Assembly (NCBI GenBank): GCA_021825925.1
Contig: JAKAFP010000003.1
Location: 1-64,000, forward strand
Source of the DNA: Chloroflexota bacterium
GTDB taxonomy: Bacteria; Chloroflexota; Anaerolineae; Anaerolineales; Anaerolineaceae
Direction of reading: 5' to 3'
DNA: 64,000 bases
In this document: in pieces, positions 1 through 51,090 of the stretch
How positions within the stretch are numbered: the first letter of the stretch is position 1
Layout: each line of letters starts with the position of its first letter
The notes under the pieces: model-generated
The model's database searches: none
Told to the model about the DNA's origin: nothing
The model's input: the letters and a program-made list of their open reading frames with translations, nothing else
Position numbers and translations under genes: made by a program

Positions 1-1755
1 GGTGATGTCCTTGCGGATAACAGTGGTGACGTTGGCGGGGGTACCCCAATAGCCATCGAATTTGGTCATGACGGTTTCTTCGCCAGGAGTCCATTTTTCG
101 AGTTTGTAGGGGCCAGTTCCATTGGCGATCTTGCTGAAGGGATCTTCAGCGGAGGTCATGCCATAGAAGTTCTGCCATGTTTCGCAGGTTCCGTCCCAAC
201 CACCATTTTCCTTAACCCATTCGCTGTCCATGATGGAGCCCCAGCCATTGGCAAGGGTCGGGAGCAGAGGACCCCAAGGCTGAGCCAGGGTCAGGGTAAC
301 AGTTCCAGCAGCGTCGTCAGCAACAATTGCGGCCTTAACGGTTTCGCAAGCGGCGACAAGTTTGGCGGGGTCATTGGCGACAAGGGTCTCGCGGCTATCA
401 GCAGAGGCGCCTTCGTCAACGATCATGGTGATGTCATCATTGCCAACACCCAAGAAAGGTTCAGCAAGCAGCCATTGGGGAGAAGAATACCCGCCCTGGA
501 GGATGCCACGTTGCAGAGAGTAAGCAACATCAGACGGGGTCAGATCGCCACCTTCGTGGAATTTGACACCAGTGCGGATCTTGAAGGTCCAGGTCTTGCC
601 ATCGGCGGAGATACCACCATTGTCAAGGGTCGGGACTTCGGTTGCCAGTTGGGGAACGAATTTATCGGTGGCAACACCATCATAGAAGACCAGGGTTTCG
701 TAAACGTTTTGGATGATCTCACCGCTGGAGGTGTCATAAGACAGAGCGGGATCAAGGGTGTCAGTATCACCGGCAGTTGCGACAGTGATAGTGTCAGGAT
801 TCTTGGCATCTGCAGATTTGGTCATGGGAGCGTAGTAATCGGCAGAGAAAATGGGATTCAAAACACGATTACCAAGCCATCTCTGTTCGTAACCATGGGA
901 GGTCGGCAAAACAGTGATGATGCCGGGGGCCATATCATAATAGAGCTGGTTCATCTTGTAATAAACTTCAGCGCGGGCAGCAGGATCCACCAGAGAAACA
1001 CCTTCATTCAAGAGAGCCTTGAATTGGTCTTTCAGGTCAGCAGCCATGTTTTGGCGGGCGCCGTAAGTTCCGGTGGTGTAGGGCTGATACCAGTTGTGGG
1101 CATCATGAATATCTTCCAACCAACCAGCGGTCATCATAGGGATTTTCTTGGCGCGTTGAGCAGCCAAGTAAGCAGGCCAGGGCAGACCAAGAACTTCGAT
1201 GGTGAATTTTTCATTCACTTCGGCGAGGTTGGCTTGCATGATCTCAGCATAGATCTGGCGGGTTGAGTTGCCTGTGTTGTAGAGCAACTGCATACGGAAA
1301 CCCATATTCCAGACATCGGAGCCATCGGTCTCGTCGCCGGCAGCGATGCCATCTTTGTCAACATCAGCCAGTTTGAATTCGGCGGCTGATTTTTCGAGAT
1401 CCATGGTGTAATGAGCTGAATCCGCGCTGTAGCCAGGCATGCCAGGCAGAGCAAGGGTCAAGGATTGAACAGCCTCACCATTCCAAACTTCATTGATGAC
1501 TGTATCCCAGTCGAAAGCGTAGGCAAACGCCTTGCGAATGTGGACATCATCGAAGAATGTGGGGGGAATACCATTGCCGTCAAGTTTGTTTGAACCAATA
1601 TAGGGGTTCAAGACAAGTTCAACAGCAGGGGTTTCAGTAACTGCTGCAACAGCTTCGGTTGCAACAGGGGCTTCAGTCTTTGCGGCGGTACCACAAGCCG
1701 ACAAAATGAGGCTGAAGACCATAATCACACCAACTAACGCATATAACTTACGCAT
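1..1755 (-). CDS. ABC oligopeptide/dipeptide solute-binding lipoprotein, permuted domain order, 3' end outside window
   Basis: Extracellular solute-binding protein, family 5 (SBP_bac_5), that would deliver peptides or similar solutes to the ABC importer encoded upstream. 585 codons are visible and the stop lies beyond the left edge. The ATG at 1755 follows a strong AAGGAGGAG. Residues 1-21 form a lipoprotein signal with lipobox LSAC (Cys21). The order is unusual. Residues about 47-310 match what is normally the C-terminal half (FFDDVHIRKAFAYAFDWD, then the tail with AARAEVYYKMNQ). Residues about 315-585 match the normal N-terminal lobe (PDTITVATAGDTDTLDP, then VYETLV, then NGTGPYKLEKW). Residues 131-142 (DVDKDGIAAGDE) fit an EF-hand calcium loop. 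It follows oppD and oppF in the same direction. The family call is firm; the substrate is unknown. Confidence 0.9.
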   Translation of the reverse strand, partial: MRKLYALVGVIMVFSLILSACGTAAKTEAPVATEAVAAVTETPAVELVLNPYIGSNKLDGNGIPPTFFDDVHIRKAFAYAFDWDTVINEVWNGEAVQSLTLALPGMPGYSADSAHYTMDLEKSAAEFKLADVDKDGIAAGDETDGSDVWNMGFRMQLLYNTGNSTRQIYAEIMQANLAEVNEKFTIEVLGLPWPAYLAAQRAKKIPMMTAGWLEDIHDAHNWYQPYTTGTYGARQNMAADLKDQFKALLNEGVSLVDPAARAEVYYKMNQLYYDMAPGIITVLPTSHGYEQRWLGNRVLNPIFSADYYAPMTKSADAKNPDTITVATAGDTDTLDPALSYDTSSGEIIQNVYETLVFYDGVATDKFVPQLATEVPTLDNGGISADGKTWTFKIRTGVKFHEGGDLTPSDVAYSLQRGILQGGYSSPQWLLAEPFLGVGNDDITMIVDEGASADSRETLVANDPAKLVAACETVKAAIVADDAAGTVTLTLAQPWGPLLPTLANGWGSIMDSEWVKENGGWDGTCETWQNFYGMTSAEDPFSKIANGTGPYKLEKWTPGEETVMTKFDGYWGTPANVTTVIRKDIT

Positions 1756-44599: not shown

Positions 44600-45634
44600 A
44601 TGGAGAGTGCCAAAAAAGATCCTGCTGAGGGATCATTACTGAGTGTTCAGGATCTAAAGACCTTTTTTTATACCGAAGATGGCGTTGTTAAAGCCGTTGA
44701 CGGGGTTGATTTTTCTGTAAAATCTGGCGAAGTTTTAGGTCTGGTGGGTGAATCAGGTTGCGGTAAAAGCGTTACCAGCCTCTCCATCATGCGCCTCGTC
44801 AGCGCTCCGGGCGAGATCACGGGTGGAAAAATTATTTTTGACGGAAAATCACTGCTTGACCTCACAGAAGACGAGATGGTTAAAATTCGCGGTGATCGTG
44901 TTTCGATGATCTTCCAGCAGCCCCAATCCAGCCTCAACCCGGTTTTTCGGGTCGGTGATCAGGTGGCTGAAGTCCTGCAAATCCACAAAGGCATGAAACA
45001 TAAAGAGGCCTGGGCTAAAGCAGTTGATCTGCTCACCCAGGTAGGCATTCCTGATCCCGGGCGCCGCGCCCTGGCCTATCCGCACGAACTATCCGGCGGA
45101 CAAGCCCAACGCGTGATGATCGCCATGGCCCTGGCACTTTCACCGCAGCTTTTGATAGCGGATGAACCCACCACCGCTCTGGATGTCACCATCCAGGCCC
45201 AGATCCTTGATCTGATCCGCGATCTACGCAAGCAAACTAACTCTGCGGTCATCTTGATCACCCACGACCTAGGCGTGATCTCTGAGATGGCAGACATGGT
45301 GGCGGTCATGTATGCCGGCCAGATCGTTGAATACACCGATGTTGAACCCATTTTTGCCGAACCCCTGCATCCTTATACCAAAGGATTGATCGGCTCCATT
45401 CCGGTTCTGGGCAAAATTGTGGATCGACTTGAAGTCATCCCGGGCCTTGTACCGAATTTGATTGATCTGCCCATCGGCTGCCGTTTTGCTCCCAGGTGCC
45501 AAATGCGTGAGAAATATGGCCTTGAGATCTGCACCAAAAAAGACCCCGATCTTTGTGAAGTAAAACCCGGACACACAGTCCGCTGTTGGTTGTATCAAGA
45601 TTCAGAGGGTCATTCTGCGCCGATCAAGCTGTAA
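44600..45634 (+). CDS. oppD: Oligopeptide ABC transporter ATP-binding protein OppD
   Basis: 344 aa. Walker [10 protein letters not shown] (50-58), Q-loop [10 protein letters not shown] (note QQP instead of the usual QDP), signature LSGGQAQR (about 167-174), Walker B LLIADEP (about 186-192), H-loop THDLG, and an oligo_HPY tail with [12 protein letters not shown] and CRFAPRCQM. First gene of the complete operon D-F-binding protein-B-C. GGAG lies 9 bases before the ATG. Confidence 0.95.
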
Positions 45635-45657: not shown

Positions 45658-46653
45658 ATGAGTGAATTAGACATCGCAAAGACCAAGACCCAAAAAGACC
45701 TGGTTGAGGTCAAAAACCTGAAGAAGTACTTCCCCATTAAGAGCGGGATCATTCAACGCGTCACTGCCCATGTTCAGGCGGTGGATAACGTCAGCTTTAG
45801 CATTAAAAAGGGTGAAACTCTTGGCTTGGTGGGCGAATCCGGCTGCGGCAAAACCACCATTGGCAGAACCATTCTGCGCCTGATCGAACCCACCAGCGGT
45901 TCGGTCGAATTTGAAGGTGTGGATGTTTTATCGCTCAAAGGCGAGCAGCTAAAGTCCGTCCGCAAGAACATGCAGATCATCTTTCAGGACCCATATGCAT
46001 CGCTCGATCCGCGTGTGCCCATTGCGGATTCTGTCATGGAAGGCCTTAATATTCACAATATCGGAAGCAAACAAGACCGCTATCCGATGGCCATCGAGAT
46101 CTTGAAAAAAGTGGGGCTTGAAGAATATCATGCCCGGCGTTACCCCCATGAGTTTTCAGGCGGACAGCGGCAAAGGATCGGCATTGCCCGCGCCCTGTCT
46201 TTGAACCCGCAGTTCATTGTATGTGATGAACCCGTATCTGCACTGGATGTGTCCATTCAATCACAGGTGCTCAACCTGCTTAAAGACCTTCAAAAAGACT
46301 TGGGGCTGACCTACCTGTTCATCGCGCACAATCTTGGTGTTGTCGAACACATCTCAGACCGCGTCGGTGTGATGTACCTCGGGAAAATGGTTGAACTAAC
46401 CAGTCGTGAAGACCTCTTTTTGAACCCCATGCACCCCTATACCAAAGCGTTGTTATCGGCCATCCCGGTTTCTGAACCTAAATTACGAAGAGAGCGCACC
46501 ATCCTTAAAGGGGATGTCCCCAGCCCGGTGAACCCACCCAAAGGCTGCCGTTTCCATCCCCGCTGCCCGATCGCTGTGGCAGAATGCGCCCTGAAAGAAC
46601 CGGAATTCATTGAGAAAAAACCTGACCATTTTGTTGCTTGCTGGCGGGTTTAA
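45658..46653 (+). CDS. oppF: Oligopeptide ABC transporter ATP-binding protein OppF
   Basis: 331 aa. Walker [10 protein letters not shown] (about 60-68), [11 protein letters not shown]-loop, signature SGGQRQR, Walker [12 protein letters not shown], and the tail [12 protein letters not shown] with [10 protein letters not shown]. In the H-loop region the text reads AHNLGVV, that is Asn in place of the usual Asp after the His; the His itself is kept. It starts 23 bases after oppD. Confidence 0.95.
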
Positions 46654-46784: not shown

Positions 46785-48443
46785 ATGAAAAAGAACAAGA
46801 TTTTTGCAATATTGAGCGTTTTGGTGATCATCACCATGCTGCTCGCAAGCTGCAAAAAGGCACCTACAGCTGAAGTAACCCTCAGCTTCCGTGTCGTTGA
46901 TCGTGCTTACCTGCCCTCACCTGACAAGGTTGCACAAGAGATCCAGGCTCAATTAAAAGAGGTTGGAATCAACGTAACCCTCAAGGAAATGGAATCTGCC
47001 GCCTTTATTGACGCCACTTCCGCCGGCCAGGAAGCCTTCTACCTGTTGGGTTGGAACGCTGACTATCCCGATGCCACCAACTTCTATGATTACCACTTTG
47101 GTAATGCCAACAACAAACAATTCGGCAACCTGTACCCTGACATGGTCGCTGAAATTTCAGCCGCTGGCAAAACCGCAGATCCTGCCGCCCGCCAGGCCCA
47201 TTACGACACCATCAACCAGATGCTCAAAGATGATGTCATGATGATCCCTGTTGCGCACGGTGGTTCTTCCACCGCCTATCAGGCAAATGTTGAAGGTGCC
47301 CATTCCAGCCCGCTTGGTAATGAGAACTTCAGCGTTGTTGCCAACGGAACAGACACCTTTGTCTGGATGCAGAATGGTGAACCCGCTTCACTGTGGTGCT
47401 CAGACGAAACCGATGGCGAAACCCTTCGCGCATGCGAACAGGTTTACGAATCCCTCTTGGGCTTCAGCATTGGTGGAACTGATATCGTTCCGACATTGGC
47501 TGAAAGCTATGCCGCCAATGACACTCTTGACGAATACACCTTCACCATGCGCGATGGTGTGAAATTCCATAACGGTGCCGATCTGGATGCCAGCGATGTT
47601 GTGGCTTCATTCGTTGCTCAATGGGATGCCAAGAGCCCCAATCACGTCGGCCGCACCGGTACATTTGAGTACTTTGGCGCCTTCTTCGGCAGCTTCATCA
47701 ACGCCGATGCCCAGGCAGCCGAATTGGTTGACAATGGTGGTTTGCTCTCGATGACCGCCCCCAATTGCGATTATGGTGGTGAGTTCAAATCAATCGAAGC
47801 CGTGGATGCCAAGACTGTCAAATTCAGCCTGTGCGCTCCCGATCCCGCCTTCCCGTCCAAGGTCGCCTTCTCTGTCTTCAGCATTCAAGATAAAGACTTC
47901 CTGGATGCCAACAACGGCGATTCTGTGAAGATGAGCGAAACCCCCAACGGAACCGGCCCCTACATGGTAAAAGCCTGGAACCGCGGCGACAGTGTTGTTT
48001 ATGAAGCCAATCCCAATTACTGGGGTGACAAAGCCAAGACCCAGAACCTGATCTTCCGCTGGTCAGAACAATCTGCCCAACGTCTGCTCGAACTCCAGGC
48101 CGGTACTGTCAATGGTATTGACAATCCAGGTCCGGATGATGTTGCAACCATCGAAGCTGACACCAATTTGAAACTCTATCCTCGCGCCGGCTTCAATATC
48201 TTCTACATCGGCTTCAACAATACCATCGCACCGTTTGACAACCTCGATTTCCGCAAAGCCATTGCTTACGCAATTGACCGCCAGCGCATCGTGGATCAAT
48301 ACTATGCTGTTGGTTCAAGTGTTGCAGTCAACTTCGTTCCCCAATTCGTGAAACCGGGCGCCAGCCCCAGCGTTACCTGGTACGAGTTCGATCAAGCCAA
48401 AGCCAAAGAATTGATCCAGGCTGCCGGTTATTCAACCAAATAG
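46785..48443 (+). CDS. ABC oligopeptide solute-binding lipoprotein with circularly permuted domains
   Basis: Complete family 5 binding protein, 552 aa, with lipobox LLASC (Cys23). GGAGG at the right distance fixes the ATG at 46785. Segment order is permuted. Residues about 29-187 are the normal C-terminal tail (ADYPDATNFYDYHFG; DPAARQAHYDTINQML). Residues about 188-475 are the normal N-terminal lobe (RACEQVYESLLGF, then DGVKFHNGADL, then NGTGPYMVKAWNRG). Residues about 476-552 are the start of the normal C-terminal half (NLDFRKAIAYAIDRQRI), ending AKELIQAAGY and a stop exactly where a normal protein would continue into the tail. Each part occurs once and the total length is normal. The importer genes around it are intact. 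Confidence 0.93.
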   Translation: MKKNKIFAILSVLVIITMLLASCKKAPTAEVTLSFRVVDRAYLPSPDKVAQEIQAQLKEVGINVTLKEMESAAFIDATSAGQEAFYLLGWNADYPDATNFYDYHFGNANNKQFGNLYPDMVAEISAAGKTADPAARQAHYDTINQMLKDDVMMIPVAHGGSSTAYQANVEGAHSSPLGNENFSVVANGTDTFVWMQNGEPASLWCSDETDGETLRACEQVYESLLGFSIGGTDIVPTLAESYAANDTLDEYTFTMRDGVKFHNGADLDASDVVASFVAQWDAKSPNHVGRTGTFEYFGAFFGSFINADAQAAELVDNGGLLSMTAPNCDYGGEFKSIEAVDAKTVKFSLCAPDPAFPSKVAFSVFSIQDKDFLDANNGDSVKMSETPNGTGPYMVKAWNRGDSVVYEANPNYWGDKAKTQNLIFRWSEQSAQRLLELQAGTVNGIDNPGPDDVATIEADTNLKLYPRAGFNIFYIGFNNTIAPFDNLDFRKAIAYAIDRQRIVDQYYAVGSSVAVNFVPQFVKPGASPSVTWYEFDQAKAKELIQAAGYSTK

Positions 48444-48521: not shown

Positions 48522-49598
48522 ATGCCTCAATTCATCGGCCGTCGTCTATTGTTATTATTACCCGTCTTATTGGGAGTGGTGCTGGTCACCTTTGTGATCG
48601 TTCGTTTGATCCCGGGTGATCCGTGTGTCACCATGCTTGGTGAACGCGCCACACCTGCAAAATGCGAAGCGTTTTTGGATAGATATGGTCTGAACGACAA
48701 TATTTTTGTCCAATTCGGGCGTTATCTGGTCAACATGACCAAGGGAGATTTTGGAGAATCCATCCGTTTTTCCCGTCCAGTCAGTGATCTGATTGCCGAG
48801 CGTTTACCCTTGACGATGGAACTGACCCTACTTGCCATGTTGTTTTCCACCATCGTAGGTGTGCTGCTGGGTGTCGTCTCGGCTCTCAAACGCAACACAT
48901 TTATTGATACGATCACCATGATCATTGCGAATGTCGGTGTTTCCATGCCGGTGTTCTGGCTGGGATTGCTCCTGGCCTATGTTTTTGCATTAATTTTGAA
49001 AGACACTATCTTTGTTTTACCCCCATCAGGAAGGTTCACCGCTGGCGCAGCCTTGCAAGACCTATCCGTCTACTGGGGAATGACCGACCTGACCGGATTC
49101 AAGAAATTTGCAGTTGAATTCATGTCCAATACGGTCCTAATAAATTGCATAGTCACTGGTGATTGGAAAATGTTCTGGGATTCGTTGAAACATTTGATTC
49201 TGCCGGCTGTCGCAGTTGGCACCATTCCTATGTCCATCATCGCCCGCATGACCCGCTCCAGTTTGCTCGAAGTTCTTGGTTTGGATTACATCCGCACTGC
49301 ACGTGCAAAAGGGTTGATCGAACGCAAAGTCATCGGCAAACATGCCTTTCGCAATGCGCTCATCCCCATCGTCACCATTATTGGTATTGAAACAGGCAGT
49401 CTGCTCTCAGGAGCCGTGCTGACCGAAACCGTTTTTGCTCTACCCGGTCTGGGAACTGCCATGGTGGGCGCCATTCTGGCCCGCGATTACCCTGTTGTAC
49501 AAGGGTTCACCCTTGTGATCGCATTGATTTTCGTTTTAGTGAATCTACTCGTGGATCTTTCTTATGCGTACCTCGATCCGCGTATTCGTCTTGAATAA
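48522..49598 (+). CDS. oppB: Oligopeptide ABC transporter permease OppB
   Basis: 358 aa with about six membrane spans. N-terminal RRLLLLLPVLLGVVLVTFVI is typical of OppB/DppB. The EAA loop reads DYIRTARAKGL (about 257-267), the ATPase contact. The periplasmic-side loop (about 165-215) is longer than usual. ATG at 48522. Confidence 0.95.
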   Translation: MPQFIGRRLLLLLPVLLGVVLVTFVIVRLIPGDPCVTMLGERATPAKCEAFLDRYGLNDNIFVQFGRYLVNMTKGDFGESIRFSRPVSDLIAERLPLTMELTLLAMLFSTIVGVLLGVVSALKRNTFIDTITMIIANVGVSMPVFWLGLLLAYVFALILKDTIFVLPPSGRFTAGAALQDLSVYWGMTDLTGFKKFAVEFMSNTVLINCIVTGDWKMFWDSLKHLILPAVAVGTIPMSIIARMTRSSLLEVLGLDYIRTARAKGLIERKVIGKHAFRNALIPIVTIIGIETGSLLSGAVLTETVFALPGLGTAMVGAILARDYPVVQGFTLVIALIFVLVNLLVDLSYAYLDPRIRLE

Positions 49599-49609: not shown

Positions 49610-50539
49610 TTGGAAGATCTAATCGAAACCCAAAAAACCAATAATGACCAAAGGCGTTCACCAACCCGTGAAGTAATTAAGCATTTGTTACGTCACAGAT
49701 CAGGACGCACTGGCCTCATTATTCTATCTTTGCTTGTGCTTATCGCCATATTTGCACCCTTGATCGCACCGTATGATCCGACACAACTTTTAAAAACTGA
49801 AAAACGCCGCGATCCTCCCTGCGTCCATCTGTTTGGATGCCCCAAAGACCAGGCGCAGCACCTTTTCGGTATTGATGGCAACAGCCGAGATCTCTTTTCA
49901 CGCGTGATTTTTGGCTCACGGTTGTCTTTGCAGGTCGGCCTGGTGACCATGGGCTTTGCCATTTTGGTCGGCACCATCATCGGCGCCTTCGCAGCTTATA
50001 CCGGCGGCGCCGTGGATAACATCTTGATGCGGCTGATGGACGTGGTCATGGCTTTCCCAAGCCTGCTGCTGGCCATCACCATCGTGAGTGTGCTGGGAAC
50101 AGGGTTGATCAACGCCCTGCTTGCCATCGGTATTGTATCCATTCCGCGTTTTGCGCGTTTGGTGCGTTCCACTGTCCTATCAGTCAAGGAATTGGAGTAT
50201 GTTCAGGCTTCTAAAGCACTGGGCGGATCTTCGATGCACATTCTTTTCAAACGCATCCTGCCCAATGCCATCACCCCGCTGATCGTGCAAGGCACGCTTG
50301 GCATCGCGACCGCCATTCTGGACGCCGCCGCCCTGTCTTTCCTGGGACTTGGCGCAGAACCTCCGCGGCCTGAATGGGGTCTGATGTTGGGTGAAGAAAA
50401 GAACAGCATCTTTAGCGCCCCTCACCTGGTGATCTTTCCGGGTATTGCCATCATGCTGACCGTGTTGGCCTTCAACCTACTGGGTGATGGTCTGCGCGAC
50501 GCTCTCGATCCGCGCCTGACCCGCTCAAGATCAGCATAA
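49610..50539 (+). CDS. oppC: Oligopeptide ABC transporter permease OppC
   Basis: 309 aa. N-terminal OppC-type segment (HRSGRTGLIILSLLVLIAIF), a short outer domain with FGIDGNSRDLFSRVIFGSR, then spans and the EAA loop EYVQASKALGGS. It starts with TTG at 49610, supported by GGAG at 49601-49604; the next ATG would remove essential sequence. The gene is 11 bases after oppB and is followed by a terminator. Confidence 0.94.
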   Translation: MEDLIETQKTNNDQRRSPTREVIKHLLRHRSGRTGLIILSLLVLIAIFAPLIAPYDPTQLLKTEKRRDPPCVHLFGCPKDQAQHLFGIDGNSRDLFSRVIFGSRLSLQVGLVTMGFAILVGTIIGAFAAYTGGAVDNILMRLMDVVMAFPSLLLAITIVSVLGTGLINALLAIGIVSIPRFARLVRSTVLSVKELEYVQASKALGGSSMHILFKRILPNAITPLIVQGTLGIATAILDAAALSFLGLGAEPPRPEWGLMLGEEKNSIFSAPHLVIFPGIAIMLTVLAFNLLGDGLRDALDPRLTRSRSA

Positions 50540-50831: not shown

Positions 50832-50979
50832 CGCTACCTCCTCAAGAGATAAAAAAGCTGCCCGTTCCAAACGGACAGCCCTAAAGCGCTTTGTTATTAT
50901 TGAGATGATTTGAGCTGTCTGCAATGCTCTTTGCACTTTCAGTATAGACAATTCAAAATCCGAAGTCAAGCGGTTGCCC

Positions 50980-51090
50980 TCTATAGGGGCATACCATGCC
51001 CGCTACATGGGCATACCATGCCCGCTACATGGGCATACCATGCCCGCTATAAGGGCATTTCATACCCCTAAAGGGGTATTTCATATACCC
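50980..51090 (-). repeat. Tandem array of five 22-base hairpin units
   Basis: On the minus strand five units of 21-22 bases run in tandem, each a small palindrome of form GGGCATGGTATGCCC or GGGTATGAAATGCCC followed by a spacer such as ATGTAGC. Two central units (51001-51022, 51023-51044) are identical. The first, more degenerate unit includes the last codons and stop of the acetyltransferase-like gene. Confidence 0.85.

Follow-up and report, generated by a model that had tools for sequence, protein, structure and literature searches.

The window, by which we mean the whole 64,000-nucleotide stretch of Chloroflexota DNA that was analysed, contains an ABC transporter operon whose binding-protein gene has its segments in a rotated order (Table 1). 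The reading frame opens with ATG, closes with TAG and encodes 552 amino acids; a lipobox-like LASC motif, recognized by eye, occupies residues 20–23. Two ATPases carrying the oligo_HPY domain and two BPD_transp_1 permeases lie beside it, the gene set of a Dpp/Opp-type importer, and the gene is predicted to encode the lipid-anchored binding subunit of such a transporter. Presumably the system still takes up peptides, as suggested by the oligo_HPY ATPases, the OppC_N permease and the DppA/HbpA-like sequence of the binding protein; against the DppA equivalog model NF043070 the protein scores 192.7 bits, below the cut-off of 1005. On the 3′ side of the operon, at 50975–51084, a 22-bp unit is repeated about five times in tandem, and every copy has a short palindrome around GCCC...GGGC. 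A search for repeats around the binding-protein gene found nothing at the gene ends.

Table 1. Features of the window, in window coordinates
Feature	Position	Strand	Evidence
Another family-5 binding protein with permuted segments (D order, C-lobe ahead of N-lobe), truncated at contig start	1..1755	-	Pfam, canonical HMM
ABC ATPase with oligo_HPY (DppD/OppD-like)	44600..45634	+	Pfam, synteny
ABC ATPase with oligo_HPY (DppF/OppF-like)	45658..46653	+	Pfam, synteny
Family-5 solute-binding lipoprotein, circular permutation of A order (C-tail, N-part, middle)	46785..48443	+	Profile, PDB-sequence and rotation matches
Signal peptide, lipobox LASC (Cys23) and short linker, residues 1-28	46785..46868	+	Sequence, by eye
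C-tail segment, residues 29-187, corresponding to canonical C-terminal part	46869..47345	+	3m8u match, canonical HMM
N-part segment, residues 188-309, corresponding to canonical start	47346..47711	+	3m8u match, canonical HMM
Inner junction, about residues 310-320: old B-order end FFGSFINA / old B-order mature start APNCDYGGEF	47712..47744	+	Comparison of A and B proteins
Middle segment, residues 321-552, C-terminal AAGY-STK	47745..48440	+	3m8u match, canonical HMM
Permease, BPD_transp_1 (DppB/OppB-like)	48522..49598	+	Pfam, synteny
Permease, BPD_transp_1 and OppC_N (DppC/OppC-like)	49610..50539	+	Pfam, synteny

The canonical order in this family, N-lobe, middle and C-tail, is not the order of the window protein. 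Aligned to the solved family-5 protein 3m8u, it gives three matching pieces in rotated order: residues 210–300 correspond to chain positions 23–120, residues 334–550 to 126–343, and residues 36–178 to 353–498. The match to PF00496 (SBP_bac_5) is likewise split into two stretches in swapped order, with residues 234–551 covering profile positions 2–280 and, upstream of them, DNA 46881–47117 covering positions 288–367. In this native order the score is 275.2 bits against a curated cut-off of 32.4, which places the protein in the family; PF00496 was its sole Pfam match at E-values up to 1, and homology to the cluster B sugar-binding proteins was not found. When the segments are rotated back (residues 188–552 followed by 29–187), the comparison proposed with the original prediction, a single stretch, 47–448, covers profile positions 2–367 of 368 and the score rises to 287.7 bits. 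The best PDB sequences also align in single stretches (for 3m8u, 147–515 with chain 126–498). Rotation thus restores one full-length family match, and every segment is present once, as expected from the claim that the gene is a permutation and not a fusion. The proposed arrangement, in which the tail precedes the N-lobe and the chain ends at AAGY, is borne out by the rotated 3m8u and PF00496 matches, and we conclude from these alignments that the window protein is a genuine circular permutation that is complete and has its cut in the AAGY loop. By sequence alignment, its new chain ends adjoin mature residues 341–344 of E. coli DppA. The resemblance to family-5 proteins of the DppA, HbpA and OppA type (cluster C, PF00496) extends over the whole domain once the protein is rotated back, and the operon make-up is the same; the difference lies in the rotated order of segments.

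Conservation of the A order within the genus

A permuted gene could be a misassembly or a chimera of two tandem genes, since the contigs are metagenome-assembled and tandem binding-protein genes occur in a relative. We give this explanation practically no weight. Colinear matches in A order were found in 10 of the 16 same-genus genomes, that of the window included (G000, G001, G003, G005, G006, G007, G009, G010, G011 and G012), and the nine other than the window genome are also named records from separate projects (L047–L054 and L057). Because relatives in separate assemblies share the order, neither chance nor misassembly is credible, and the signal peptide, the stop codon and the operon are all intact. 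Other permuted forms, moreover, sit in single-contig genomes (G071, G486, G281, G473 and G416). Purifying selection acts on the A genes: among eight of them, dN/dS was 0.05–0.14 in 22 of 28 pairs with computable dS, many dS values being saturated, and 0.07–0.13 where dS was below 1 (five pairs). An order kept in relatives and a gene under selection are what is expected of a genuine circular permutant. It is also very improbable that the permuted protein has lost transport and taken up another role, such as sensor or scavenger. Against such a role, eight A loci (L047–L054) retain the gene between two ATPases and two permeases, in the order ATPase, ATPase, binding protein, permease, permease. 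One of these loci (L051) ends within the last operon gene, and in another (L053) one ATPase is in two pieces. The original prediction also raised the possibility that the cut could alter folding or opening; the conserved operon and purifying selection argue that function has been kept.

In the remaining same-genus genomes the picture is mixed. The gene of G014 has the B order (middle, C-tail, N-part), its frame broken by an unresolved base, and no close copy turned up in G002, G004, G008, G013 and G015, where the best E-values ran from 1e-20 to 4e-49. Among the A genes, that of G007 ends at the contig end, and that of G006 (L011/L050) has one in-frame TAG near residue 51, either a sequencing error or a sign of a broken gene.

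Nesting of the A genes within a B-order group

The B order is the form met in other genera and families: an export signal and linker, then the middle, the C-tail and the N-part. A scan of GTDB species genomes gave 397 relatives, and among the best 80 of these 397 loci, 69 show B order, 9 show A order (the window genus) and 2 are incomplete. ORF counts over 126 loci, in which the same gene is counted repeatedly where loci overlap, gave 97 in B order, 21 with C-tail, N-part and middle, 5 normal and 11 partial; the 21 include the D-order L005, because the three-segment test cannot tell D from A. B order was seen in Leptolinea sp. HRD-7 (a complete genome), in Thermoflexus and Caldilineales, and in Ilumatobacter nonamiensis and four other Actinomycetota records. 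The idea of a lone odd gene was therefore rejected, B order being found in most of the kept relatives.

A tree of 35 rotated-back proteins, mostly from metagenome-assembled genomes, places the eight A genes in one clade (support 100/99), with the G014 B gene as sister (99/95) and further B genes next (97/96). Forcing the 24 B genes into a group that excludes all other proteins cost 99.7 log units in this tree (AU p 1e-9). The G014 gene occupies an operon slot identical to that of the window gene, and the two permeases there are 82% and 86% identical to those of the window.

The junction inside the A proteins is in concordance with this nesting. Comparison of eight A proteins with three B proteins shows that the inner junction keeps the last residues of the B form: FFGSFINAD in the window protein and FFGSFINAE in L007, against FFGSFLNAE followed by the stop in the B form L016. 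After this old end come about 16 residues and then the mature start of the B form, APNCDYGGEF in both the window protein and L016. In L012, L013 and L015 the B-end motif at the junction is weaker. The ancestral end is thus joined to the ancestral start inside the A protein, as permutation by duplication predicts. The new A ends correspond to AGYKDGLEVTLSF in L016: AGYSTK closes the window protein and TAEVTLSF is its start. The nesting of the A genes inside the B group, together with the internal joining of the two ends of the B form, argues that the window gene is a permutation of a permutation, from canonical to B and then, inside one genus, from B to A. Of the original prediction of a lone protein made from the canonical order, the permutation stands; a direct canonical origin and a lone case do not, as the nearest ancestor was already permuted, at a different site.

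Further permutations in Chloroflexota family-5 proteins

When the fetched ORFs are scanned with a canonical HMM, the cuts fall at three sites, near canonical positions 120 (B), 281 (X, comprising orders D, E, H and I) and 348 (A). By sequence alignment these are close to mature residues 118–119, 274–279 and 341–344 of E. coli DppA. Several of the other forms have normal-order neighbours in the tree. The D order, with full-length matches in 12 genomes, has a normal-order sister (100/99); the E order (for example G032, G019, G044, G026, G057, G024 and G030) and the H order (G071 and G034) each group with a normal-order protein (both 100/99). The A-type cut recurs outside the window lineage in G027, whose sister has normal order (100/96), in G092, where support is weak (85/68), and in the single-contig genomes G486, G281, G473 and G416, the first two of which are in the tree with normal forms (98/98). 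Those four single-contig genomes (L264–L267) are 1.8–2.1 Mb in size, and L265 and L264 have, by eye, a twin-arginine-like signal at their start. Within the B clade itself, G183 and G206 have a cut near 281, and in these forms a Pro/Ala/Thr-rich piece precedes the old start. The D-order gene at the edge of the window (1–1755, minus strand) and G000:C13:454017-456068 (L038:6000-8054) form a near-identical pair (92%) and belong to another subfamily than the A-order protein.

We assembled 89 proteins (39 normal, 34 B, 11 X and 5 A) from 276 classified ORFs, in which some genes are counted more than once where loci overlap, by removing short or truncated frames, thinning by identity to 111, keeping 34 of 55 B proteins and excluding the mislabelled L137. 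By parsimony, nine changes of order are needed on their tree, a number to be read as an estimate for this sample, given the length of the deep branches and the warnings attached to several rows. A single origin of all permuted forms was rejected, since holding the 50 permuted proteins together gives an AU p of 8e-53. Parsimony gives no direction to these changes; the normal order is taken as ancestral on the basis of E. coli DppA as outgroup, the solved family-5 proteins and a plasmid control. That control matched 989 records, and each of the 20 matches listed consists of two pieces over about 1.5 kb for a query of 0.84 kb; these 20 fit the normal order.

Canonical position 213 or thereabouts is likely a fourth cut site. 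The proteins in question, of about 870 aa (G type; L190, L192), match the canonical HMM partially and are not in the tree. Their swapped order appears as two Pfam matches each in G071 and G024, one of the G024 matches being below the cut-off, and by eye in the window genome. The frames concerned (G000:C6:108505-109197, L190; L192 in G071; G024:C1:233820-236189) span about 800–975 aa and have an extra C-terminal region.

Fusions are also present. One protein, G114:C232, was considered as a duplication intermediate with the N-part twice and rejected: a family-3 binding protein fronts a B-order protein. L259 (G114) and L270 (G170) are such in-frame fusions of a family-3 binding protein ahead of a B-order family-5 protein, and in L037 (G074) a family-1 binding protein takes the leading place; all are lipoproteins. 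L217–L226 are fusion-like by length and match position, L217 being the same gene as L270.

The frequency of swapped genes was gauged by a PF00496 search of eight near-complete Chloroflexota genomes, which gave 81 matches, grouped by hand into 65 genes. Of these, 14 are swapped (one on a match below the cut-off), 48 are normal and 3 undecidable, a share that is not a random sample because the genomes were picked for assembly quality. In G031 none of 13 genes is swapped. In the window genome three of nine are, with C6 there probably one more.

Precedents, origin and meaning

The original prediction knew of no described natural case in family 5, and our search of an open library of published papers, which includes few subscription papers and no preprints, likewise found none. 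Closest among the precedents found is TpMglB-2 (Tp0684) of Treponema pallidum, a circularly permuted glucose-binding lipoprotein (PMC4990184, available text). It too is a naturally permuted, tethered ABC binding protein conserved in relatives; unlike the window protein, which belongs to family 5, it is a sugar binder of another class, Type I or cluster B (Type Ic or cluster Bc), and the available text describes one permuted topology, as against the several cut sites and stacked permutation seen here (PMC4990184). DNA methyltransferases and saposin/swaposin offer other natural permutations with adjacent ends, which the part of the review available to us explains by tandem duplication and trimming (PMC3320104). 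The family-5 forms share the adjacent ends and differ in that no intermediate was seen and that each rotation has left the export signal in front.

We consider it likely that the window gene arose by permutation in two steps, canonical to B and then B to A, in the same operon slot, most probably by duplication and with the usual fold kept. The first step would have turned the canonical N-part, middle and C-tail into the B order that is widespread in relatives, and the second, inside the genus and with the operon slot unchanged, would have turned this into C-tail, N-part and middle. At each step two copies lying head to tail would be joined, the end of one to the start of the next; the first copy would lose its leading part and the second its trailing part, while the signal peptide would stay in front. 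The product would be the usual two-lobed clamp, serving the same permease, with nothing shifted except the ends of the chain and the point of tethering. Duplication is favoured by the end-to-start junction, by the Pro/Ala/Thr-rich piece in G183 and G206, and by a tandem pair of B-order genes that occupies the binding-protein slot of G021, before two permease genes (L077/L036, G021:C93). The members of this pair are, by segment, 51–66% identical to the window protein, and G021 is outside the window genus.

The other of the two main models, according to the available part of PMC3320104, is fission and fusion, in which split half genes are rejoined in another order with no tandem duplicate. It would set the old ends side by side just as well, and no fused or half-duplicated intermediate was seen among the 276 classified ORFs. 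The same ORFs, however, include no standalone half genes beyond pieces at contig ends or unresolved bases, and the tandem pair is present in G021; we think this route unlikely. It is somewhat doubtful, too, that the rotations are adaptive, moving the lipid tether round the binding domain to suit permease docking or the cell envelope. The authors of the TpMglB-2 study raised a tether idea for their permuted lipoprotein (PMC4990184, available text), all permuted forms whose start could be read keep the export signal in front, and permuted genes are frequent in the eight genomes (14 of 65, hand-grouped). Yet several different cut sites recur, so that no single tether point is favoured; in the Leptolinea B protein (L056) a signal peptide is visible by eye but no lipobox cysteine; the first permease of the B-bearing G014, 82% identical to that of the window, falls inside the 79–95% range of the eight A-bearing loci; and a neutral route is enough.

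Most circular permutations that are met are single events of old date. The large, well-studied family examined here shows several separate permutations that can be ordered by a tree, including a re-permutation within one genus whose un-rotated sister is still in the same operon slot. In Pfam and NCBIfam, permuted family-5 proteins give domain matches that are split, and they easily escape notice. It is tempting to propose, though we do so tentatively, that the Chloroflexota family-5 proteins amount to a natural circular-permutation scan, with about nine or more topology changes at three favoured loops (with a likely fourth around canonical 213), some of them stacked, the lipid anchor re-placed each time, possibly under selection. 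The family makes it possible to test how topology can change while the intermediates still work, where a clamp protein tolerates new chain ends, and whether the tether point matters for ABC import.
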